Source: Antedon mediterranea
Lineage: Eukaryota; Echinodermata; Crinoidea; Comatulida; Antedonidae
Direction of reading: 5' to 3'
DNA length: 64,000 bases
Assembly (NCBI RefSeq): GCF_964355755.1
Contig: NC_092670.1
Span: 25,655,795 to 25,719,794, forward strand
Part shown: piece after piece, positions 2,344 through 61,061 of the stretch
How the letters are laid out: each line of letters begins with the position of its first letter
Numbering within the stretch: position 1 is the stretch's first letter
Notes under the pieces: generated by a model
Seen by the model: the letters and a program-made list of their open reading frames with translations, nothing else
Databases searched by the model: none
Told to the model about the DNA's origin: nothing
Translations under genes and position numbers: made by a program

Positions 2344-4950
2344 CCGACAAATCTACCAACTATCTGCTGCAGTAGTTTACAGAAGAATATGAGTTTTTAT
2401 TATTCATACAGAAATATTTTTGTTGATTCTTGTTTGTTCAGAAGCCATTTTTCTAAGGTAAACAATTAAATTAACCTATTGACTAAAAGAAATATATTGA
2501 AATATATTTTTGTCATTGATTAAAACTAATGTTAAAATATAATTACTATAAAGAAATATAGTAAAGCTCGGCCCTATTATAAAAATTCCAATAATAAATA
2601 ATGCTGTGGTTATTATAACCAGTACTACACTAAAGAGAGTGTTATATTTCATTAAAACTCAACTCCAAGAGTGTGTTATATAGTTAATTCATTTCATTAT
2701 AATTCAACTCCATATAAACGTTTTACTATAGTACAACTCTATAATGACTTGTGCTGCTTTAATTGATTATTGTACAACTCAATAAAAGATAGTGTTCTAA
2801 TTCATGTCAGTGTAGTACATACCTCTAAAGTAGTGTGTTTGTACTCTTGTTCATTTCACAATAGTACAATTCAATGCCACTCTATTTTATCATTCTCTTA
2901 ATACAAGAGTGTGCGATGTTTTGTCGGAACTCTACAAAAGAGATTTTCCTTGTTTTACTATAGTAACTCTATAATGACTTGTGCTGCTTTAATTGATTTT
3001 TGTACAACTCAATAAAAGAGAGTGCCCTAATTCATTTCAGTGTAGTACTATATACCTCAGGCTTTCTTTGTACTCTTGTTTATTTCACAATAGTACAACT
3101 AAATGCAACCCTACAATGCAATATTTTACAGTTTTTATCATTCTCTTAATACAAGCTGTGTGTGCTATGTTTTTTTAGAACTCTACAAAAGAGTTATTTT
3201 ACTAGAGTACAACTCTATAAAACTTGGTGCGTAGGTAGTTTCAAAATCATACAACATACTGGAGTGTTCAGAAGTTCATTTCACTATTAGTAAAACCCCT
3301 TATTATAAATAGTTGTAAAGTTCATTTTTCTGTAATAGAACTCTATATGAGTTCATTTCAATATAGTATAACTTTATTTACCCACTATAATTCACATTTG
3401 TACAAATATTGTGTTTACAATACTTATATAGTAGTACTGTATTGTTTACTATAAGTGATATTGGTTAACCAATATATTTATATGGTTGTATCTATTTGTT
3501 TATGTACATATTGTGCATCACTTATCTCAAGTAATAAACAGCACTAAATGTTTACAGAAAACAAATTTCAGGATAAAATAACGTGTGTGTCTGCGTCATT
3601 TAGTGTATGATTCTCCATGAGATACATGAAAGGAATCATGTTGATATATTTTGTTAAATAATTTAAAAAACATTCCAATTTGTATTTAAAAAGAAAAGAA
3701 AATGAAAGAAATATTGTTAACGTTAGCCATTCATTTTCCTTCTTAAAAATTTATATTTATATAATACTTATTATGATTTCTTAAGGATGAAATATATGCA
3801 TGAAGGAAGCGTGGTTGTCCTACCTACCTTTATAACTAACATTACAGATTATGAACAATGAATGAGCAAACATACTTTTTTTATTTATACCCTCTTAGAT
3901 TATTAAAATAAATAAAATATTCAATCATAAGGAGATGTTAAGAGGTTATAATTAGTATGAATATTCATAAGGAAAAGAGGTTATACAGTAAATGAATTTT
4001 CATGAAAATATATAACAAATGAATATAGTATGAATATTCATAAGGAGAAGAGGTTATAACGAATAAAGTATGTACATTATTCTTTGCATGTTATGCAAAA
4101 AAAGAATATATGATATAAATACTTCATGAATATTAATTTACAAATAATATTTTAATATTTAAAACTCTTGAAAATGCACTAGTGTTGTTTAGGGTCATGA
4201 CCTATACATGTGCAGATATGTAAACAAAATATTCAACAAATAGTTTGAGCAAATTGAAAGGAGTATTTTCTATGTTCATTGTTAAATTTGATTATCAATA
4301 AAAGAAAAGTTTTTATATTTTCATTAATTTATTATAGAAACAAAAATATTAAACAAAAAAATATGTATGTGTAGTAGCATACAATATTTATTTTTCAGTG
4401 TAATTTATATTTTTCGAGATGTCTTTGTGTAAAGTGATATCATTTATTATTGTGGATTTTATTTTCTATTTAAAATAAAAAGGACTTTTATTTACAAATG
4501 AAATAAGTATTTTTGTTAACACTTTTAAAATAATCTGAATCGCATCGTACGTGAATTAGTTATCGTGGTTTGTATAATGCAAAGACGTGTTCGGTTTACT
4601 TTACAAGACGTTGGTTTGATAAAAATCAAAGGCGAACCGGAGCTTCTCTTGTCCTACTATGTACAGTATTGCACAACAACATTAACACAGTTATATTTCT
4701 TAATTTTCTCCAATACTATAGCATTCCTTAATAAGTAACGGTTCTTCCTTTATAATGGCCAAGGCAACAGTCGTATTACCAGGAAAGAAATATATTGCGT
4801 ATTATACTTTATAGACGTATGATTCCGAATTATATGATCTACTAGAATCACACCGCTTCAAATTAAAAACCTATTAACTCCTATACATTATTTCTTCTTG
4901 AATGTGTATTTACAAATATACATGGATAGCTAGATTGGCGCCAAATTGTG
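2344..4950. other. 3' flank of the LOTUS gene, no gene seen
   Basis: A+T-rich sequence without a convincing exon. It should contain the 3' UTR of the upstream gene; AATAAA occurs at 2781-2786 and near 3533. A degenerate tandem duplication lies at 2721-3200. A short motif, GAATATTCATAAGGA followed by AGAGGTTATA, recurs at about 3957 and 4031, with a weaker copy just before at about 3925. Confidence 0.5.
2721..3200. repeat. Two-copy tandem duplication, about 232 bp unit
   Basis: The segment from 2721 and the segment from 2953 match over their length, including ATAATGACTTGTGCTGCTTT and TCATTCTCTTAATACAAG in the same order. Diverged fragments (GTACAACTCTATAA, AAAGAGAGTG) continue on both sides from about 2620 to 3400, so this is part of an older, decayed array within the 3' region of the LOTUS gene. 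Confidence 0.75.
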
Positions 4951-10892: not shown

Positions 10893-11801
10893 TGCCCTAG
10901 GCTAGACCCTATTATATGCATTATTACTAAAAACAAGAGAGACTCTGCGCTGTGTAGGAGCCTAGCTAGGTAGAAGTGGCTCCTGCTGCTGTTTCGTGTG
11001 GTAGACTTGCTGGATTCCCGACTTGCTATGCCTACTTATAGAGACTAGCTACTGTATATAGGCCTAGTGTGTTTACAACTCCCTGCCCTGGTGTAACTAT
11101 GAACTAGGTAGGCTAACTAGGCCTATCCCAAAATATTAGGCAGTGTCTGTATATTAATAAAATGGCTGTCTGTGAGTGTGTGCTTTGATCTGACACTACT
11201 GTGCCTTTTGATATTTATAGGTATAAAACAGACAATAAATACTATATATGAAGCAAACTTAAATAGAAAATGTTAAATATTAAAAATTTGCCTATTGTAT
11301 TGAGCACAATTATTTTTAAAAGGTATACAATAAAGAATAACTATTTAAAAAAATACTTACATTTATCATAATGATATAATAATATTAATAATATTAATAT
11401 TAAATAAAAACAATAAATTCTTCTGTTTTTTTTTTAAAATAAAGAACTAGTCACTAGGCCTAGTTAGATATAGTAAGTAGGCTAGCTTGATCACTTTGAC
11501 CATTGTGATTCACTTTGTTTTAATCTTAAATAGTAATACTGTAATCATTACAATACATCATTTAGGCCTATTTGTTTGTTACATTTCAGCCCCGTGGAAA
11601 ATGCAAGATAAAATTGTTATGTTTATTATTATTTTATTATTATTACTTTCAATTTTAACTAATGTATGTAGGCTATTTTTTGTTACATTTTGTTTTGCAG
11701 CTATATGGAAGATTCAAGAAATTTTGTATTAATATCAGCAATTGTTCTTTAGATTGTCAATAGCTGTACATCAATGAGCTGACAACCAATAAAAGGGAAT
11801 T
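10893..11801. other. Intergenic region upstream of SLC38A10, nothing recognised
   Basis: A+T-rich sequence with some AGGCCT motifs. It should contain the promoter of the SLC38A10-like gene, but no TATA-like element or first noncoding exon could be supported. Confidence 0.35.
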
Positions 11802-11905
11802 GACCGTGGTGAGGACCATTCTTGACTGACAGTGGAGAGGACCAGTCTTGACTCACAGAGGAGAGGACCAGTCTTAACTGACAGTGGAGAGGACCAGTCT
11901 TGTAG
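11802..11905 (+). repeat. 26-bp tandem repeat, four copies, just before the SLC38A10 start
   Basis: Four units of the type GACAGTGGAGAGGACCAGTC plus TTGACT lie 60-165 bp upstream of the ATG at 11966, so in the 5' leader or proximal promoter. Units 1 and 3 are slightly diverged. Confidence 0.85.
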
Positions 11906-11965
11906 TTTTAGACGGAAACTGTGACAGTGACTCCTATCACTAAAGTAACCGACGAAGACCCCACC

Positions 11966-14900
11966 ATGGCAGGAACAACCCCGCTGGTGCCCATCATTAA
12001 TCTTGCCAACAGCATCATTGGCGTGGGTGTACTCGCAATGCCATGGTGTTTTAATAAGGTACTGGAATCCTTTAAAGATGTCTTGTCCCCCTAAAATTTA
12101 AATAGCCATCATTTTGAAGTTTCAATCAAGTTATTCACTTTAAAAAAAATTCATTTCAGAAAGAAACGAACAAACATAATGATTTCACTTATTAAAAAAA
12201 ACAAAATAAACCAATAATTTGTACAAAAAACTCAGATTGTAATTACAGACAATTTCTATTTTTTCCTTTAAATTACAGTTTATTTCAAGTAAATAATTTT
12301 TTTAAATTTAAATAAATGTGGGTTTTTACAGATCACATTCCTACTAATGCCAACTTTTTTTTAAACTATGATTTCTTTTTTCTGAAATTGAATTCTAAAT
12401 TTATTATTAAATTAAAACATTCCTCAATTTGATCTTGAAGGAAGTTCAATGAGATGACACTCATTTTCTATCTCTTTATTTTAGTATAAGTGGAATATCT
12501 ATTTTTTTAAATGTCAGATTACATACATTATGTTACCAAACTTGTTTGTAAAGGTTTAGTTATTCTGTACAATGACAGGAAATTTAATTCAATTTAAATG
12601 TTTTACTTTCTTTCAGTGTGGTTTCATTTTAGCATGTTGTTTATTATTATTTTCTGCCTTTCTTACCTACACAAGTTGTATGCTGTTACTACGGGCAGCC
12701 AAAGCAACCAAACGTACATCGTACGAAAACCTAGGTAAATGTTGTACACTTTCTTAAACACAAAAAGTTTAAATTAAAATTACCATTCAAAATTCAGTAT
12801 ACAGTAATGATAAATTTCTTTTTTATGAAACTGTCTTGCTATCTAACTAATTATGATGGCGTGTTTCTCTGTTTGTTGTCTGTTGGTACTTCCTTGTCAG
12901 GTTCAATGCCACATTTAAAAATAACAAATGAATGAATAAAACATATGTTTGAAAAATAAATTTAAAGAAATATTTACTGTAATTAAAACTTTTTAGTTTT
13001 ATTTATTTTCTTCAGCCTATCATGTATTAGGTGCCACAGGCAAGATGGCTGTAGAGCTATGGTAAGAATATTATTAGTTGTTGTTTGTCTAATTTCTTGT
13101 ATATTGTCTTTGGTATTGACACATTTTTGTCACATTTTATTAGTTATGTCAGTAATATGTCAATGATCAATAATATATGCTTAAAGGTTTATGAAAAAAT
13201 GTCCTGTAATATTGTGTTACATATATACAGTATGTACAGTGTGTGGGATTTGAATTAATATGTTTAAAATTATAATTAAAATTAATTAAACTGTATGAAA
13301 TATTATGTGGTTTCAGTAAATGTAGAACTTTTTTGATACTGCACTGAAACATTCTGTTTGGTCACAGTATTCAGAATAAGTTTATGTTTTGGTTATTGAA
13401 CAAATAGATCTGTTTTCAATAATACAATATAAACTAATAATGTATTTAATCTTAGTATCATTGGCCTGTAAATTAATAATGTATTTAATCTCTTTTTAGT
13501 ATCATTGGCCTGTAAATTAATAGTGTATTTAATCTCTTTTTAGTATCATTGGCTTGTAAATTAATAATGTATTTAATCTCTTTTTAGTATCATTGGCCTG
13601 TAAATTAATAATGTATTTAATCTCTTTTTAGTATCATTGGCCTGTAAATTAATAATGTATTTAATCTCTTTTTAGTATCATTGGCCTGTAAATTAATAAT
13701 GTATTTAATCTTTTTACAGTATCATTGGCCTGTTGTTTTGTTCCTGTGTGTCATTCTTCATAATAATTGGTGATTTGGGACCAGCAATCATTTCAAAATG
13801 GCTCTCATTAGAAGTATGTTAATCATTAATTAAATATTATCTATTTTGATTACAGACAGGTACTATATGAAACAGGTGCGTCCAAAAAAAGTACGATAGT
13901 ATGATAATTACGACAATTTCAAAACCAACTATAAATCTGTTTTGTCAAAAATTGTCTTTCATTATTTACTGACAATTTAAATGTAGAAATGAGTAACACT
14001 TTTAGAGAAAAAGGAGTTATCGAATTGTACTAATTGACTGTTATTATACAAATTGTTATTATATACATAACAAGGATTTTTAGTTTTTCCATCATCATGA
14101 GGCTAGTTTATTTAATAAGCCTATATTTACTTTCTATTTCACTGCTAGTCTCTAGTTTCAAAAGGCACTTAGCAAAATGGCTACTGACTTTCTGCATAGT
14201 AGTTATGTAAGCATTTTTATTTTCTAGATATGAATTATTGCTTTGATTATTTGTTTAGAATACACCAAAATTGAGGGCGTCGCTACAAATGTTTTTAGCA
14301 GTAACTGTTGTGTTTCCGCTGGGATTAAAGCGTAGTGTAGAGAGTCTTGCAGCAGTTAGTGGCCTCTCTATGATATTTTATATTTGCTTTACAGCCGATG
14401 TAAGTAGTGTGTTCCACTTTTACTTATCTATATATCATTTTAGCTAAAAAGTGTTATCATTACCTACAGTATACCCTAAAAATATACCATATTTATTTTA
14501 TAATATGTATATGAGAGAGTTTTCTCAGATAAGGACTATAAACTGTACACATCTGGCTTATTTGTACTTAAAAGAACCTAGTACATCTTTTGAGGCGAGT
14601 ATGGGGTACTAGTACACAATGTCGCACAGCTACTGTTACACTAACCTTCAGACGACAATGGGTTGCCTGCTATTGCGACTCCTGGGCCAAATGAATAAAA
14701 TAAATGTAAATATGTTAACACGCAGAAGCTTATGCTTTAGTATACGTTAAGTAAGTCTACATTTGTTATCAATGATTAATATTTTTAAATACTTATATTA
14801 TATTATTATAACTTCAGCGGTGTACTATTTTCTTTGTTTCAGATGTTTTTTAATAGTTTGTATGACTTATCAATAGGAACATGGACGCATGAAAGTAAAT

Positions 14901-17900
14901 TGTGGGACACAAAAGGAGGTTTTATTTGTATCACTATTACGACAATAGCATTTAGCTGTCAGACGTAAGTACTGTATGTTACTGTATTACTGCATTTGGA
15001 TTGGGTGAATTATACTTGTTTGCGAGTTTGAGAAAGCATTGTATCGTCCCCAATAGTTGATTTTATCACCCTTGATTAGTTTGACCGTGCCTCTATGTAA
15101 AACTACAGTAATACAATTAATTACTCTCAGTTATTGGAACAACCATAATATCTACCAGTTGGAACAACCATAATAAATACCAGTTGTAACAACCATAATA
15201 TCTCCCAGTTGTAACAACCATAATATCTCCCAGTTGTAACAACCATAATATCTCCCAGTTGTAACAACCATAATATCTCCCAGTTGATATTATGGTTGTA
15301 ACAACCATAATATCTCCCAGTTGTAACAACCATAATATCTCCCAGTTGTAACAACCATAATATCTCCCAGTTGATATTATGGTTGTTACAACTAGGAGAT
15401 ATTCCAGTCGTTACATCTAGGAGATATTACAATTGTTCCAACCATAATATCTCCCAGTTGTAACAACCATAATATCTCCTAGATGTAACGACCGTAATAT
15501 TAGGGAGGTTTCGCAACTTTACGAATACGATCCCCATTTCATATTCGTAAAGCATTTCGTGTGACGAATATCATCAGTCATATTCGTAACTACAAAACGA
15601 GTATAGTTTTTGGTCTATTTTGCATTTTAATCATAAATTATTTATGATTATAATATAATTATAGATTTATTGAAAGTAATTTACTAAAGTAATTTACTAA
15701 AATGCCAGGTAAATTTTGATAATTAACAGTTTTTAAAGTCCTCACTCGCTTTGATGTTACGCCAGGCCTAGACAGTCAAGTAAAATGTACATGCACTTCG
15801 TTCAAATTTACCGCAGTCATAATATTTGGACGGCGCCCTCAATATTCTTTGCCATGCGAAACAGATTTTTACTGGCTTAAGAAAACGAATACGTGTATAT
15901 GTTTTAGTATTTTAGCATTGAAAAACCTCCCTATTTTTTTTTTGAATAACCATAATATCTCCCAGATTGAACGATTGTAATATCTCCCAGTTGGAATGAC
16001 TACAAGATCTAACGAGCTGAAATGAATATACTCCTTTGCGAAATGTGACTTTTAAATTGATGCTAAACAATGTTATTTACTTTGAAATTTCTTTTTCCGC
16101 CAGAGTGCTTTTTACAATTTACGAATCAATGGCAGATAGAACAATAAAAAAAATGCAAGAAGTTGTTAAGAACTCAGTTACATTAGTTACTACAATGTAC
16201 TTTGTTGTAAGTTTGTGTATTTTATAAACTTTATTGAAATATAATTTAAAAATTAGTTTCCATATCAGTTCTATGTTATGAACATTTATTTGATTTCTTC
16301 ATCATTCACATTTCAATTTGTTGATAAAAATTGTTTTTATTTTTTAGGTTGGTTTATGTGGTTATGTAACATACTACAAACAAGGAATTAAGGGAGACGT
16401 GTTACTCAATTTTAAGCCGTCCTTGCTGTCCGACATTTTCCAGATGGGTTTCACTTTCTCAGTTGCTCTTAGTTTTCCATTGGTCATATTTCCTTGTAGG
16501 AGTAGTCTATATTCAATGTTTTATTCACAAAGTATGGTAAGAATTGTATTATAAAGTTATTTTAGCTCTAAAAAGAACTTCTATTTGCTGTCAGCCACCA
16601 CCTTATCTTGGCCAAAATAATAGACGATAGATTTCTTTATGTGATAGTGATTTGGTGTAATGGGTATTGAAGCATGTGATTTTTTCAAGATCTATCAGTC
16701 CCTTGCATACACAATGTACATATACGTGATAAAGATACACTAGATCTACTATTTGAAAAGAGATGGGGATCGTCTTCCAATGTATGCACTTCATTGTAGC
16801 TGTTATGAGAGGGCAGAACTGAGGGCGATTACTAATATTTTTTTTAATGAAGCTTATTCATTTTTTATTTATTTATATCTCTGCAGTCACACAGTATAGA
16901 GAACCCTGGTGGTAGCGGAGGAAGTGTATACATTCCACCCGGCAAATTCAATACGATAACAATGTCGATTATTGCACTTACTCTTACGCTGGGAATCTTA
17001 GTTAAAAATGGTAACTATTCAAAGTCGTTGGTTAACGCTTATAGCATAGATATCGTAGGTCGTCGTAAAAGTTTACATATTTATTTACCATTTCTTTTTA
17101 GTTGAAACGGTACTTGCATTGACTGGTGCTACTCTTGGTAGTTTTATCTGTTTTATTCTGCCAGCTATCATATACATCAAGACACATGGAGTAGCTAATA
17201 AAGGAACAGCAAAGGTAAGCATTTTTCTGCAGTTACTGCAGTATAACGATTATTAGTGACCAGAACATGTAGAGTCTGTGTGGTTAGTATAATCTGTGAC
17301 TAAATGAAACCTAGAGTTATAAAAAAAAGAATTTGCCCTATCTTTAATTGTAGCTAACTAGAGGGTTCGCTCGCGCACCATCTAGTGGGTGTAACCGTAT
17401 GCTTCTCGGAAATATGACCAACGCCTCTGGAAACTTAGGCCAGGGTCCTATGCATGTGACTGATGAGTTCTGCATGTTTATTTGTGATGTTTTATGAGGG
17501 GTCCTTTAACTTACGAAAAAATATCGTTGTCCAGGAAATATAGCAAATTTGATTATGTGGTAGGGCAAAGTTATAAGGTATTCGTTGGTATTCTATGTGG
17601 GACTGTTGTGAAATCCAATTAATGAAGTAGTAAGAATGTTAAATGACATGTAGCTCAGAGAAATAACAACTTTCATACTTATATACAGTTTATAACATTA
17701 AAGTTTAAAATAATTTATAATATAAACATTAAAGGTGTGTCGCACCTCATCCTGATACCAGGCCTCCTATTAGGTAATTAATAAATAACAAAAATAATTA
17801 GTTCAATCACTAAAATCAATTAGCACGTAAAGTAAAAGCCAGTCATTTCAGCCTTGTCCTGCCACTCCCTATTTCATATAGAATTAATATCAATGAGTTA

Positions 17901-55600: not shown

Positions 55601-58600
55601 AGGGACAATACATATTTAAACAAACGCAATTTGTGTTTTGTATGTATTAGGGTTGAGGGATGAGGAAGAGGATGGGTGCAATGAGGAACGATTTCTAAAT
55701 ATATTCTTTATCCAATCAGTAACAAAATATTTTTTCATGTTTTATAGGCCTACAAATAATATACCAATAATACAGTAGAACATTTGTGATTTAATACGTT
55801 GTGTTAAAACTTTCACGGTCATAGTCAATTGATAAAGTAAAGTATAGAACGCCTCCTCTGCCTTCTATCATGCAGTACACACCAATCGTCATGCAGTACA
55901 CACCAATCGTCATGCAGTACACACCGATGGTCATGCAGTACACACCAATCGTCATGCAGTCACCAATCGTCATGCATTGCACACCAAACGTCATGCAGTA
56001 CACACCAATTGTCATGCAGTACACACCAATCATCATGCAGTACACACCAAACATCATGCAGCACACACCAATGGTCATGTATTCGTGCATGCAGTACACA
56101 CCAATGGTCATGCAGTACACACCAATCGTCATTCAGTACACACCAAACATCATGCAGTACACACCAATGGTCATGCAGTCGTGCATGCAGTACACACCAC
56201 CAATGGTCATGCAGTACACACCAAAATATTGCGTAATTTATACTGCCACCTATCGACAAAATCGAATATCACGTGACGTTTATTAGACGGCTGAGTAAAA
56301 CTAAGGACATCGACTTTTCTTTATCTTTTATGCTTGACATACTGTACTTATTTTAACCGCTACACATCTCTGTAAATGCTCTGTTTTTTAGTCGCGTGGA
56401 AGCGACTCTATAGTTCACTATGTCGGTCGGTCGGTCTGTCTGTCTGTCTGTCGGTCTGTCTGTCGGTCTGTCTGTCTGTCGGTCCGGTATCACTATGCGT
56501 TTTATCGCTTTCTGACCTTATCTTGATATCAGTTTAATCTAGCTAGGTCAATTTTTCACAGTATATTCCTTATGGCCAGGAATCAATGTGGTTATGTTTT
56601 CACGGTGCGCAATAAAAAATTACGCGGTCTACGCACGATTTAACGAAATCACGTTTGTAATCATATCTTCACAACCATGAATCACAATTAAATAAAATTT
56701 GGTACTCATAAATTTCAGGGCATAAATCATCATATGGCAATACAATTACGTGCGTAGCGCATGTAACGCATGCGTACGCGCGCTTAACATTTTCAAAATT
56801 TATTTTCGATGAAATAAGAGTACATTTCAGGCAATTTTAAGCGTTTACAAAATTGCCATGAGTGCGCATATTTTTGCGCGCGCACTGCGCGTTAAATGTT
56901 ATTGCGCACTCTTTTTGCCCGATTTCTGTTTTCTTGACTTACTTTTCAACTCGAAATTACGTTATACGAGCACGTCGAAAGTGACAGGCTACGCACGTGT
57001 AAATTAAAAAAAAATAAATGTTTTTAAACATTTCAACATTTTTAAACATGTTCAGTAATTTCGGTCAGTATAGTTCACTATGTCGGTCGGTCGGTCTCTC
57101 TGTCTGTCTGTCTGTCTGTCAGTCTGTCGGTCTGTCTGTCGGTCTGTTGGTCTGTCTGTCGGTCCGGTATCACTATGCATTGTAGCACGCGACTTAATGG
57201 CTGTTGGCCTTGTTATATATACAATTAATTTATTATGCGAGACACCGGCGCGGCTGGGAGGCCATTGCAATTATTGAATTCCATAAAAGAAGTTTAAATA
57301 GTCTTAGTTTTACAGCCGTCTAATAAACGTCACGTGATATTCAATTTTGTCGATAGGTGGCGGTATAAATTACGCAATATTTCACTGCATGACGATTGGT
57401 GTGTACAGCATGACGATTGGTGTGTACTGCATGACGATATGTGTGTACTGCATGACCATTGGTGTGCACTGCATGACGATTGGTGTGTACTGCATGACGA
57501 TTGGTATGTACTGCATGATGTTTGGTGTGTACTGCATGACGATTGGTGTGTACTGCATGACGATTGGTGTGTAGCCTACTACATGATGCTTGGTGTGTAC
57601 TGCATGACGATTGGTGTGTACTGCATGATGTTTGGTGTGTACTGCCTGACGATTGGTGTGTACTGCATGACGATTGGTGTGTACTGCATGACGATTGGTG
57701 TGTACTGCATGATAAATATGAACTGAAGGCACAGGAGGCGTTCCATAGTACACACCAATCGTCATGGAGTACACACCAATCGTCATGCATTTACATTTAT
57801 TCCACATTTATTTAGTCATCAATTACAGTACATCATAATTACAGTACAACTGAGAACAGGGATCCTGCATAAAAAAGCTGTAGCTTCGTTTTTTTGTAGG
57901 ACCCTTTTACATAAGAACAAGTATATAGAACTTAAATAAACAAAGGTGTTGTTAATCAGCATATAGTGATAAAAAGTATTTTTTAACCTGTTTTTTTATA
58001 CATTTATTTTGTTTCTTTAAGATAACTGGTTTATTACCACCATTACAAGTGAATTCTTTCCACAATTTTGGTCCATATATGTGTATAAACTGTTGACTGC
58101 AAGTTAGTCTTGTGAAGGGAATTTTGAATTCAGTTTCTGTTCTGAGGTTATGAGTAGGCCTAATACTGTAACAGTAATTAAAAATATTTAAAATGTGATG
58201 TGGTAATTCATTGAATTTTACGTTTGCCATAAATCCTATGACGTTTACTTTGTAAATATCATAAACGTTTAATATTTTTAGTTTCTTAAACAGTGGCTCT
58301 GAGGCTTGTCTGGATTTAGAGAAGGTAATGCATTTTACAGCTCTCTTTTGGAGTTTTAGTATTACTTCTAACGTGCTCTTGTATGTATTTCCCCATATTA
58401 AGTTACCATACTGAAGGTGAGGTAATACTAAGGTGTTATAAAGACTAATACGGACTTTATGAGGAAAGAATTCTCTTACTTTTAAAAGTATACCAATTGC
58501 CCTAGACATTTTTTTCCTAATAAGCTGTATGTGATGTTTCCAGTTAAGATTTTCGTTTAAAATTACACCTAGAAATGTCACATTTTCTTTTCTATGTAAT

Positions 58601-61061
58601 AACACATTATTCATTTTTATTTTAAACTGGTTTTTGTCAAAGTTCTTTTGGCTAGTTCTAAAAACAACGTAATTAGTTTTGCTGACATTCAGTAACAGCT
58701 TATTTGCTTTAAGCCATACGTTTATTTTTTCTAGTTCAATATTCATAGTATGGTTTAACATTGTAGGGTCATCTCCCCTTGTTATACAAGTTGTGTCGTC
58801 AGCAAAACTAATTATATCTATTTTACTACTTGCTCGACTTATATCATTGATGTAAATTAAAAACAAAAGTGGTCCTAAAACAGAACCCTGTGGCACCCCT
58901 ATATTGGTGTCTTTTAAACATGATGATCTACCGTTGGCATAAACATATTGTTTGCGGCCACTTAAATAGTTTCTAAACCACATTAAAACGATGCCTCTTA
59001 TACCATAATGCGCCAATTTGCTCAACAGAATACTGTGATCGATAATGTCAAACGCTTTTGACAAATCCATAAAGGTAGTAAGTGCATATTCCTTTTTTTC
59101 AAATGCATTTAATATTTTATGGACCAAGTCGATCATAGCATGAGAAGTTGAGTGTTTGTTTCTAAATCCATATTGATTGTTGCTTAACACTTTACATTTT
59201 GTAAGATAATTGTATAATTGATTATGGATAATCTTTTCAAAAACTTTCTAAAAAATGGGCAACAGCGATATGGGACGATAGTTTGAGGCCAAATGGCGGT
59301 CCCCTTTTTTATGTATGGGAACTACTTTGGAAATTTTCAATTTCCCTGGTATTAGTCCAGTTTGAAGTGATAAATTAAAAATATATGTCAGCGGCTTTAA
59401 AATATTGTATTTTACTTCCTTTACAACTTTTGCTGAAATGTCATCAAATCCGGGAGCTTTGTTTGAATCGAGAGATTCAATAACTTTTAGTACCTCCTCC
59501 TCATCAACATAGCAAAAAAACATTGAGTTGCGTTGTTTGTTTGTGAGGTATTCAGAATATTTTGTCGTAGTAGACTCAATATTGTCTCGAACCTTACAAC
59601 CTACATTAATAAAATAATCATTAATATGATTTACAACATTTTCGCAACCATGTATAGTTTCATTGCTATGTGTAAAAGAAGATGGAACTTTAGTTTTTCC
59701 TTTATTCGGATCAATTACATCATTTATAACATTCCATGTTTTTTTAATATTACCATTTGTTCGATTGAAAAGATTTTCATATTACATCTTTTTGGCGATT
59801 TTGCACGTGCGTGCAAAAGCTTTTTTAAATTCTTTATACGTATTTTTGTTTTTTACAGTAGGGTGTTTTATGAACCTTTTATACAGTACATGCTTTCTTT
59901 TACTTGACCTTAGTAACCCAAAACTCATCCAGGGCTGCTTGAATTTGTCATACTGTTTTGATGACTTTACAGTTTTTTAAGGTGTTTGTTATATAGAAAC
60001 TTAAAATTATCCAGAAAATCATTATAAGCGATTTCTGGATCAGTCGCTTCATATACTCCAAGCCACTCTGCACTTAATAAATCACTATTTTTAGTTTCAT
60101 AATATTTCTATTGTTAACTATATACGTGTCACATGAGACTGAGGTGCCTTTATTCATGTGCGTGTTTACGTGGGAAGACGAAGCAGAGTGAGTTATTTGA
60201 TATACTGGTAAATGGTCGGAAATGTCCGAGATTAGTATACCAGATAGAACTTTTTCGGAAATTGTATTTGAAAATATGTTGTCAATTAGTGTTACTGACT
60301 GATCTTGTATTCTAGTTGGTCTAGATATAGATGGATAAAACGAGTGAGACATCATTATTTCAATAATTTCAAATATATTGCGCAGAGCCATATATATAAA
60401 GAGTTACCGCCCGTATTCTTAAACCGGACTTTAGTCGTAGTTCGAAGTTCGACTTGAAAAAGTCGTAGTTCGAGCTATTACTTCAAATTCGATTCAAAAA
60501 CGAAGTAGTCGAAGTTTGCAGTTCGACTTAATGAAGTCGAGCTTTTAGTCGAGTTGCACACGTCTGGGTAACAAAGGCTAAACATTGGCCAATGACAAGA
60601 GAGTATTTGAGGAGCAGACGAAATTTTGCGCATTGATATCACTTTCCATTTTCTTACAAAACTTTTTACGCATTAAGACTATATACATGAAAAATAATTT
60701 TGTTGACACGCTGACTGCTAAATTTCAGTTATTTAGGCAGTATCGAGCCGTTCCTTTTAAGAATACTCATATTCCAATAATCCAAAAAGATTGAAATTGG
60801 CAAGGGTTTTCCAAGAAGTGGTATTCCACTTGGTTTGGAGAAACGGCAGTAATCAAGAAGTGGATATTGCAAATTTTCAGATAAGAAGAATCTAATTACT
60901 ACAATGCAAAATTAATTAATTAGTTTGGAAGATTTTTCTTATTCTAATTTGACTAATTGTACAGTATGTGTTGACTAAAATTTACTTACAGAATAATTAG
61001 CTGCCATAAGCCTTGGAAACTTTCCGCAAGTAAAACAGATAAGTGGTTGTGAGAAAGATCC
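37690..61061 (-). CDS. Leucine-rich-repeat type I membrane protein (5' partial)
   Basis: Nine minus-strand exons join in frame to about 433 aa: 61061-60990, 53709-53638, 53218-53147, 52815-52744 and 50388-50317 (each exactly 72 nt, phase 2, one LRR), 50116-50007, 49785-49413, 49226-49091 and 38013-37690. LRRs read DLSHNHLSVL, NISNNGIEFF, NLSYNNIKSI, NLSHNYLKVL and YIHNNRIRYI, each followed by F/G and LxxL positions. The next exon is a C-terminal LRR cap (GHCDCSW, then SGCENVSLC, four cysteines). A 124-residue segment of unknown family follows, with N-glycosylation sites (CNGSST, TNYTDES), then one membrane helix (SMIIVAASIPIIAFIAIYF). The 107-aa tail has a basic juxtamembrane part (KNKRETKPIRKL) and acidic serine clusters (SSDEASERSWDE). 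The signal peptide and more LRRs must lie beyond the window. I cannot name the ligand or the family; 72-nt phase-2 LRR exons also occur in LGR/RXFP receptors, but this has a single span. Confidence 0.8.
38573..39176. mobile_element. Inverted-repeat element, TGGCTGTATTCACCAAT ends
   Basis: The left end GTGGCTGTATTCACCAATC (38573) with CACTTAAG is mirrored at the right by TAAGTGCGATTGGTGAATAC-GGCCAC (39151-39176). AAGTG/CACTT words recur inside both ends. About 600 bp, noncoding, in the last intron of the LRR gene. Confidence 0.75.
39177..40229. other. Intron sequence, nothing recognised
   Basis: Includes GAGTTACGACTTTGGATTAAAGTCACGTG (39226-39255, in parts), of which a close inverse occurs at 61305-61345. 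No other structure seen. Confidence 0.35.
40230..40640 (+). pseudogene. Tx1/L1-type LINE reverse-transcriptase relic
   Basis: Reads NWRPITLPNIDYKIMANVIA-NRLK, then KGRFAGENKRL and SLKSFGFGHQDLIIQWVKTF in more than one frame. This is the N-terminal half of a reverse transcriptase of the L1/Tx1 type (NWRPI.LLN.DYKI.AKVLANRL; GFI.GR...EN). Stops occur throughout; the catalytic YADD block is missing. Confidence 0.65.
40730..41200 (-). repeat. GTCTGTCG microsatellite plus dispersed repeat B, copy 2
   Basis: 40760-40850 is a GACA/GACCGACA run flanked by TAGTGATACCGGACCGACAG and CATAGTGAACTATACTGACC. Immediately beside it, 40912-41200 is an inverse copy of dispersed repeat B (from GTGCATAGCCTGTCACTTTT). 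The same pairing and the same flanks occur at 56390-57180, so the two parts move or spread together. Confidence 0.85.
41750..42400. repeat. Degenerate internal repeat, GGAAGTACCA/CAGAACATAAACA units
   Basis: GGAAGTACCA, then TTTGACC, then a CTATATCTCA-type word, then TTTATTTTGGTGTCAAA and GTTCAGAACATAAACA recur about three times at about 130-180 bp spacing between 41960 and 42400. Highly diverged and noncoding; not a known family to me. Confidence 0.5.
43455..43850. repeat. Clustered TAGTAACCC units, possible decayed foldback element
   Basis: Units such as AATAGTAACCC(A/C) recur at 17-18 bp spacing at 43458-43555 and again at 43785-43840, with one inverted copy (GGGTTGGGTTACTATTTCC, 43747). 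The spacing and mixed orientation resemble the ends of the foldback elements, but a clean inverted pair is not seen. Confidence 0.4.
44130..44720 (+). pseudogene. Tx1/L1-type LINE ORF2 C-terminal relic
   Basis: Reads LDWNTIWYRKVHCTIHSKIA, QFNFKLLHRILCC and IEDERHMLINC in changing frames; this order (W..I......FQ.KLLHRIL; E....HL...C) is typical of the region after the reverse transcriptase in L1/Tx1 elements. Possibly the tail of the same old insertion as 40230-40640. Confidence 0.55.
44755..45412 (-). mobile_element. Internally deleted Penelope-like element
   Basis: Inverse of the family at 33245-34330. From right to left it reads reverse-transcriptase thumb (EHIVAAIKKAKDIPRCQT), then LTYKPRQRKK, then jumps directly to RKDKENHWELLLKTTKPFGL, so almost all of the GIY-YIG nuclease is missing. 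The 3' UTR keeps CTGACGA (minus of 44910-44916) and GAAA (minus of 44890-44893) with an intact GGGC/GCCC stem. Confidence 0.82.
45413..47109. other. Intron sequence with one old repeat, no gene
   Basis: 46318-46520 is a diverged copy of the TTTCGCAACTTTACGAATAC repeat. CCGTATTCTTAGACCGAACG at 45952-45990 resembles the ends of the element at 62849-63777. Open frames near 46725-47140 overlap on both strands and show no recognisable protein. Confidence 0.4.
47110..47890 (+). repeat. Decayed array of the tRNA-bearing 366-bp repeat
   Basis: GAGGGACTAGTGCTGTTC occurs at 47132 and 47613, and the ordered words CGCCGTAC, CGAGTTT-GAACAATACCATG, TTCGTGAATAAAATACTG and CACCGGGCGGTTT repeat, all matching the inverse of 61358-62180. 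A third, shorter copy ends near 47900. The tRNA part is lost or damaged here; in the first unit its 3' half (GTCCGGGTT...TCTCGGTTGGGGCGA) is split by a 130-bp insertion. Confidence 0.8.
47246..47375. mobile_element. 130-bp inverted-repeat element with 9-bp target duplication
   Basis: The ends GCGATATTTCTTTTCGTACA and its inverse (to ATCGC at 47375) extend over about 35 bp, to GTTGGGGACCCC. GTCCGGGTT flanks it on both sides (47237-47245 and 47376-47384). A 9-bp duplication fits Mutator-like elements. It interrupts the T arm of a tRNA-like sequence. A half copy lies at 62686-62750. Confidence 0.9.
48011..48082 (-). pseudogene. tRNA-like sequence (degenerate)
   Basis: 72 nt on the minus strand with a good A box (TGGTCTAGTGG) and a perfect B box (GGTTCGAATCC). 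The anticodon-loop position reads GTA, but the anticodon and T stems do not pair well and only part of the acceptor stem does. More likely a SINE head or tRNA pseudogene than an active tRNA. Confidence 0.6.
48520..48668. repeat. Right half of the CGCCCGTATTC inverted-repeat family
   Basis: CATTTAGTCGGCAATTTAGCCTGC, GATTTAGTCGAGGTTGGC, GAAGTTCGGTTTAAGAATTA and TTTAAGAATACGGGCGT match the right end of the element at 62849-63777 in the same order. Confidence 0.75.
50556..52392. mobile_element. Foldback element 4 (ends built from GGACAACTACCCCCTA repeats)
   Basis: The left arm (50556-50800) is a run of about 17-bp units of the type GGACAACTACCCCCTAG; the right arm (about 52300-52392) carries the inverse (TAGTTGTCCTAGG...). 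The middle contains a second inverted pair: GCATGTTTGTATGAAAATAG near 51439 mirrors 51271-51290, with a third copy near 52019. About 1.8 kb, noncoding, in an intron of the LRR gene between two LRR exons. Confidence 0.8.
53710..55199. other. Intron sequence of the LRR gene, nothing recognised
   Basis: A+T-rich; no further 72-nt LRR exon was seen, nor a recognised repeat. Confidence 0.35.
55200..55600 (-). repeat. Dispersed repeat A, copy 2
   Basis: Inverse of 25830-26245, with shared words ATGAGTATACATTATGCATG, AAATAAGCGCG and ACTTTGACTGGAAGTCAAAG. A T-run (55561-55589) lies near its edge. Confidence 0.85.
55847..57745. mobile_element. Foldback element 5 (arms of 21-bp tandem repeats, 1.9 kb)
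   Basis: Outer ends GAACGCCTCCTCTGCC (55848) and its inverse (GGAGGCGTTCC, to 57744) enclose two arrays of a 21-bp unit containing CACACCAATCGTCATGCAG: 55868-56225 in one orientation, 57385-57715 in the other. Inside each array is the same unique 80 bp in mirror image (GTAATTTATACTGCCACCTATCGAC; ATCACGTGACGTTTATTAGACGGCTG). The core contains two GTCTGTCG tracts and dispersed repeat B. Two extra direct-orientation units (57748-57787) lie outside the right end. Because the unit is a multiple of three, all frames stay open; none of this is coding. Confidence 0.88.
56390..57180 (+). repeat. Two GTCTGTCG tracts flanking dispersed repeat B, copy 3
   Basis: TATAGTTCACTATGTCGGTC begins both tracts (56409 and 57069); both end GTCGGTCCGGTATCACTATG. 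Repeat B (56560-57000) sits between them. Compare 40730-41200. Confidence 0.85.
57800..60400 (-). mobile_element. CR1/Jockey-type LINE, 5'-truncated, ORF2 broken
   Basis: Minus strand. 60391 to about 60150 reads the end of an apurinic-type endonuclease (TLIDNIFSNTI, SDISDHLPVYQ with the conserved DHLPV). The linker (59900-59530) reads EFKKAFAR and KKTWNVINDVI across frame changes. The reverse transcriptase follows: SNKAPGFDDISAKVVKE, SKVVPIHKKGDR, ASNYRPISLLPIF (59523-59248), a frameshift near 59240, then the long intact frame 59190-57952 with FMDLSKAFDIIDHSILL, GVPQGSVLGPLLFLIYIN and the catalytic FADDT. ORF2 ends YFLSLYAD. The 3' UTR ends in ATAAATGT-type repeats near 57800. Inserted beside foldback element 5 within a 7-kb intron of the LRR gene. 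No intact ORF2, so not autonomous. Confidence 0.9.
60405..60700 (+). repeat. Left half of the CGCCCGTATTC inverted-repeat family
   Basis: Nearly identical to 62850-63145, from CGCCCGTATTCTTAAACCGG through GTCGAGTTGCACACGTCTGG to CTATATACATGAAAAATAAT. The right half is missing; the sequence diverges after about 60700. Confidence 0.9.

Follow-up and report, generated by a model that had tools for sequence, protein, structure and literature searches.

How is an exon recognized when its acceptor is repeated at even spacing in the intron before it? The boundary of intron 3 and exon 4 of a transporter gene raises this question. It lies in the window, the whole 64,000-nucleotide stretch of DNA analyzed here, and the first-pass annotation had reported six extra acceptor-like AGs at 44-bp steps before exon 4. 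We consider it highly probable that these AGs belong to a minisatellite whose unit spans the intron-exon boundary (a "mirage"), with splicing mostly at 13720 and little leakage to the other copies.

The host gene and its seven-copy array

Between the presumed ATG at 11966 and position 17200, nine exons plus the beginning of a tenth form a single open frame of 376 residues; the model was ended at 17200 by choice, and the full protein is at least 376 residues long. Pfam Aa_trans matched the joined protein with 195.7 bits in a single stretch (residues 10-372) that crosses the 13720 junction. Trp_Tyr_perm also matched, below Aa_trans (38.3 bits), two bacterial NCBIfam models matched far under their cut-offs, and a PDB search with the protein gave no match at E 0.001. 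We take the gene to be SLC38A10-like, the Aa_trans family alone being confirmed computationally. The features around the boundary are as follows (a slash marks the splice junction).

13016..13061, +, coding exon 3 of the Aa_trans (presumably SLC38A10-like) transporter; donor ATG/GTAAGA at 13062
13430..13733, +, tandem array of seven units, period 44 (TRF and unit listing)
13454..13468, +, decoy 1: AG and exon-like TATCATTGGCCTG, tract shortened (AATCTTAG); PWM 0.19, 3rd percentile
13498..13512, +, decoy 2: CTCTTTTTAG/TATC; PWM 8.01, 45th percentile of 33 reference acceptors
13542..13556, +, decoy 3: acceptor score as decoy 2; C to T in the exon-like part (GGCTTG)
13586..13600, +, decoy 4: acceptor sequence as decoy 2
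13630..13644, +, decoy 5: acceptor sequence as decoy 2
13674..13688, +, decoy 6: acceptor sequence as decoy 2
13718..13719, +, genuine acceptor AG (CTTTTTACAG/TATC); PWM 10.48, 64th percentile; sole frame-keeping site of the seven
13720..13813, +, coding exon 4, 94 nt, 31 residues; donor GAA/GTATGT at 13814

The array reported by TRF (7.0 copies, score 531) begins 368 bp downstream of the exon 3 donor. Each unit joins about 31 nt of intron end to 13-14 nt of exon 4 start, and the true intron-exon boundary sits in the last copy. The first exon-like base of AG/TATCATTGG falls at 13456, 13500, 13544, 13588, 13632, 13676 and 13720, every step being exactly 44 bp, which confirms the positions of all six extra AGs. 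The motif AGTATCATTGGY occurs seven times on the forward strand of the window, every time inside the array, and the best lag-44 identity was 0.92 over 264 bp, and none of 500 single-base shuffles exceeded 0.44.

In its commonest form the unit reads TAAATTAATAATGTATTTAATCTCTTTTTAG/TATCATTGGCCTG. Four units, starting at 13469, 13557, 13601 and 13645 (copies 2, 4, 5 and 6), are identical, in keeping with the earlier proposal of a homogenised array, and the unit at 13513 (copy 3) differs from them by two changes. The near-identity of units described in the first-pass annotation therefore holds for the interior but not for the edges: in copy 7 three bases at the end of the tract are changed (CTTTTTACAG vs CTCTTTTTAG), and copy 1 is a broken acceptor in a unit of 39 nt, its tract being 5 nt shorter by manual count. 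Likewise, the pyrimidine run ascribed to each copy is present in decoys 2-6, whereas decoy 1 has lost most of it. The 14 exon 4 bases said to be common to the copies were found in the unit listing. Two single-base changes also exist, as claimed, but instead of being divided between copies 2 and 3 both lie in one unit (13513-13556) if the register begins at TAAA.

The assembly comprises 354 Mb in 18 contigs, with the window on contig 1. A 30-base unit probe, allowing up to 3 mismatches, matched six places in it, all within the array, with the broken copy 1 missed; the reversed probe matched none. A dispersed repeat or mobile element is not supported, as the 901-bp region and the probe match solely here; this single assembled copy of the array is a lower bound, as are all assembly match counts, very common words being skipped by the search. 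No Rfam family reached its cut-off in 11000-17500. Tandem arrays can be mis-assembled, and the draft BflGb6 array of amphioxus is described as aberrantly assembled in PMC3087553, but the present array is short (304 bp), its copies 1, 3 and 7 can be told from the others and the assembly has only 18 contigs, so that an error of copy number, or an array created by assembly, seems extremely improbable.

Two other elements were observed in the window. A later intron of the same gene holds a 25-bp minisatellite (GTTGTAACAACCATAATATCTCCCA) with opposite-sense segments at 15134-15500, and reverse transcriptase reading frames lie at 57952-59781 on the reverse strand (RVT_1, 109.5 bits for 57952-59247), perhaps from a non-LTR element.

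Strength and consequence of the decoy acceptors

Acceptor strength was measured against 33 reference acceptors, scored leave-one-out, from 25 CCT-gene introns of the same genome (45 of 56 matches used, 10 being outside the fetched stretches and one overlapping another) and the eight other acceptors of the host gene. Introns were taken as the best-scoring in-frame GT-AG pair (by consensus score for the CCT genes, by the earlier matrix for myosin), which biases the reference sites to consensus-like ones. With the pooled matrix, decoys 2-6 scored 8.01 (45th percentile), the true site 10.48 (64th) and decoy 1 0.19 (3rd), and the five good decoys were the top-scoring AGs in the intron apart from the true site. 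The order was unchanged with a CCT-only matrix, the true site again standing above every decoy, but it reversed with a matrix of the eight other host-gene acceptors (decoys 7.08 vs true site 5.04), and for this reason the strength order of true site and decoys is not firm. Decoys 2-6 are nevertheless credible acceptors that score like ordinary ones of this genome, and the anatomy first described for all six is correct for five.

An ending in TAG, shared by nine of the 33 references, is no bar, and the acceptor of exon 10 in the same gene (17102; TTTCTTTTTAG) closely resembles the decoys. An AG lies 19-46 nt upstream at 25 of the 33 reference acceptors, with none within 60 nt at the other eight; the AG found 44 nt upstream of the true site falls inside this range and is ordinary for the genome.

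Joining exon 3 to any decoy yields a protein of 90 residues, against at least 376 in the model, that ends in MAVELCIIGL directly before a stop. On translation of the joined exons, the TAA predicted from the sequence to follow the fifth codon was recovered for six of six decoys, as was the premature stop, and 13720 alone continues the transporter frame. Five ordinary-looking acceptors, placed above the true site by the host-gene matrix and all leading to a stop, speak for a splicing rheostat, in which a substantial fraction of splicing goes to decoys 2-6, or exon 4 recognition is weakened, NMD follows and copy number sets transporter output. We regard this reading as unlikely; no feature of the sequence requires selection for decoys, and published cases, considered below, bear on it in both directions.

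Which acceptor is chosen would depend on the branch site. Each unit may be a complete module of possible branch site (TTAAT), tract and AG: in units 2-7 the second A of TTAAT is placed 24 nt before the intron ends, and copy 1 has CTAAT at 19 nt. This placement is a guess, because scans for the branch-site motif at the 33 reference introns gave no enrichment over shuffles. With branching in the last unit, 13720 becomes the first AG downstream; if the branch forms at the CTAAT of copy 1 or the TTAAT of an earlier unit, decoy use is to be expected. In duplicated-acceptor experiments, exon sequence past the junction helps the choice of acceptor, and the full exon follows the last array copy only. 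The spliceosome would then mostly pick 13720, as the first AG after the last-unit branch site and the only copy with the full exon behind it. According to PMC7317903, the AG that comes first downstream of the branch point is reported to be preferred, and in NF1 an AG newly created before the genuine one was used or caused exon skipping, the latter for 24 of 49 mutations creating a new AG in that zone. Given these skipping cases, exon 4 may also be skipped as another cost of the array, and at 94 nt its loss would also break the frame, an outcome that would likewise suit a rheostat.

Comparison with known repeats at splice sites

The closest precedent is the mirage, a boundary-spanning minisatellite described in several amphioxus genes (PMC3087553, PMC3902484). 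In the literature searched, which took in few subscription papers, the name occurred in these two papers only, and all hosts were cephalochordate. In the present genome GFP (PF01353) and three families taken as tunicate, mollusc and annelid markers (PF01341, PF14830, PF16915) gave no match; a miss of this kind does not amount to absence. Amphioxus mirages exist in acceptor and donor versions; the units of Adh3 measure 10-72 bp, and the acceptor-side mirage of BflGb6 has units of 150-160 bp, with 6 and 3 copies in two haplotypes (PMC3087553). As in the transporter array, the unit spans the boundary, the copies contain splice signals (here at the 45th percentile of the 33 references for five of six decoys and at the 3rd for one), and a homogenised interior is flanked by diverged edges. 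The transporter array differs in lying in another gene, in its minisatellite-sized 44-bp unit and in the immediate stop that follows every decoy.

The edge pattern, with copies 2, 4, 5 and 6 identical and 1 and 7 diverged as in the amphioxus globin mirage (PMC3087553), speaks for the reading put forward at the outset, as do the place of the true site above all decoys with the pooled and CCT-only matrices, the ordinary spacing to the upstream AG and the mirror case described below. The lead of the decoys under the host-gene matrix and the decoy-like exon 10 acceptor speak against it. Amphioxus mirages are said to leave regular splicing unaffected (PMC3087553, PMC3902484), which argues against a rheostat: Adh3 data and the authors' RT-PCR suggest undisturbed splicing (PMC3087553), and Adh and TnC are cited as free of aberrant mRNAs, with PGBD5 added as a case (PMC3902484). 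The same authors nevertheless allow that mirage copies could act as cryptic sites (PMC3087553).

A second precedent is the VNTR in intron 18 of human ABCA7, which includes the exon 18 donor and has a 25-bp unit in about 12 to 427 copies (PMC5954066). Here too a minisatellite overlaps a splice site and use of a repeat copy leads to a premature stop, the resulting RNA being NMD-sensitive; however, the ABCA7 repeat is donor-side and the transporter array acceptor-side, with the donor of the preceding exon outside it. ABCA7 comes with population and expression data (PMC5954066): VNTR length is inversely correlated with expression, which favors a rheostat, and directly with exon 19 skipping. Yet retention of one unit (~2%), which shifts the frame, is independent of VNTR length; frameshifting isoforms did not change with length, and exon 19 skipping alone did, which weighs against output being set by decoy use. 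The transporter array is real and of a known kind; the closest precedent opposes a strong regulatory effect, and effects of length are conceivable from ABCA7. Regulatory tuning by the array is a possible but hypothetical role.

Intron gain by tandem duplication, reported for potato RdRp (PMC4974935) and Drosophila (PMC2891723), offers a third comparison: tract, acceptor and exon bases are duplicated, and a GT lies at the joint between copies. The joint sites in the present array are:

13468..13693, +, six donor-like CYT/GTAAAT at copy joints, with GT at 13468, 13512, 13556, 13600, 13644 and 13688

Together with the acceptor before it, each joint donor would close a 12-nt in-frame microexon adding IIGL (IIGF for copy 3; inserted sequence TATCATTGGCCT), with the remainder of the array as a second intron. 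The array would then be a nascent intron or microexon array with donor CCT/GTAAAT, a reading that we hold to be very doubtful. In its favor, each copy would preserve the reading frame, potato RdRp is reported to have gained its intron by intron-exon duplication with activation of a cryptic GTAAG (PMC4974935), a related model was drawn for amphioxus globins (PMC3087553), and in some human genes cryptic splice sites are said to have been activated by variable tandem repeats (PMC2812944). The AG of the duplicated segment is credible as a source of an intron but the GT, albeit in frame, is very weak: none of the 34 reference donors scores as low as five of the six joint sites (0.57), and the remaining one, at 13556, reaches 2.89 (3rd percentile). 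Between decoy 6 and the true site the intron would also measure just 32 nt, and the insertion would be predicted to hit a hydrophobic stretch of the transporter. Unlike in potato RdRp and Drosophila, a new intron is a candidate only.

The boundary-spanning minisatellite thus remains the preferred reading. A 44-bp segment would have been duplicated in tandem and then have grown by unequal exchange or slippage. Duplication across an acceptor could be tolerated in that the copy nearest the exon keeps the exon whole and the upstream copies turn into intron. We infer splicing mainly at 13720 with minor leakage cleared by NMD: rare use of decoys 2-6 would give the truncated product, with NMD removal and a small effect on output. 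If the host is not a lancelet, the array extends this kind of repeat beyond lancelets, and any copy-number differences between alleles would reveal at this locus whether decoys carry a cost. Boundary arrays of this sort offer a natural test of spliceosome choice among near-equal acceptors, here seven equally spaced, near-identical modules of which the last alone is productive.

A donor-side counterpart and the frequency of arrays

The same genome holds a mirror case, detected by TRF in the gene for CCT theta (L005). A 336-nt intron begins inside a 44-bp, 7.0-copy array at 2747-3048 (TRF match 83%), which starts within the last bases of the exon. The peptide joined across TETK/GTVLIKTA matched TCP-1 theta chains; the alignment inspected, that to 8sgq, is gap-free, which fixes the donor at 2753 (AAG/GTAAGA). 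This donor scores 12.06; the seven other GTs of the array that score above 2 reach at most 7.24, and use of any of them would bring an in-frame stop two codons on. The last copy is thus the real one in the acceptor array and the first in the donor array, and both fit one idea, namely that the copy leaving the exon whole must be used: the last for an acceptor, the first for a donor. The two cases suggest a rule, testable in any annotated genome, by which duplicated boundaries persist where splicing takes place at the copy closest to the intact exon. A broader claim would be that boundary-spanning minisatellites recur at acceptors and donors in a genome outside the cephalochordates, with array copy number setting the NMD leak as a length-variable dial on a conserved gene; this we think quite improbable.

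Tandem arrays are dense in this genome. Counting those with a period of at least 10 and at least 2.8 copies, 13 were found in the window and 29 (4,801 bp) in 132,714 bases outside it, some counted twice as loci L011-L034 partly overlap. No enrichment of arrays was found at splice sites: one of 82 inferred junctions, that of the transporter array itself, lay in an array, against about 6.9 expected from a coverage of 8.4% of the loci; a few large arrays dominate this coverage. The junctions form a small and uneven sample from 25 CCT, 7 myosin (32 of the 80 listed matches used) and 9 transporter introns, and the CCT-theta donor array is absent from them, its neighboring exons being outside the match list. 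Selection may explain why overlaps of arrays and junctions were fewer than random placement would give.

Three further observations concern the myosin genes. A 31-bp unit is repeated 49 times with a 100% match (TRF rounding) in a myosin gene region (L036:4851-6369), and this array is probably very young. On contig C3 of the assembly (G000), at least 19 places over 5.5 Mb (19.6-25.1 Mb) match Myosin_head from about 342 to 408 with similar scores, pointing to a large local expansion of myosin genes; the figure comes from 80 listed matches and 65 scored candidates of 334 and is a lower bound. Finally, two adjacent versions of one myosin exon (ending in EAFGNAKTCRNDNSSRF and EAFGNAKTIRNDNSSRF), with GTAAGTA after each, lie at L044:2517-2822 and are possibly mutually exclusive exons.
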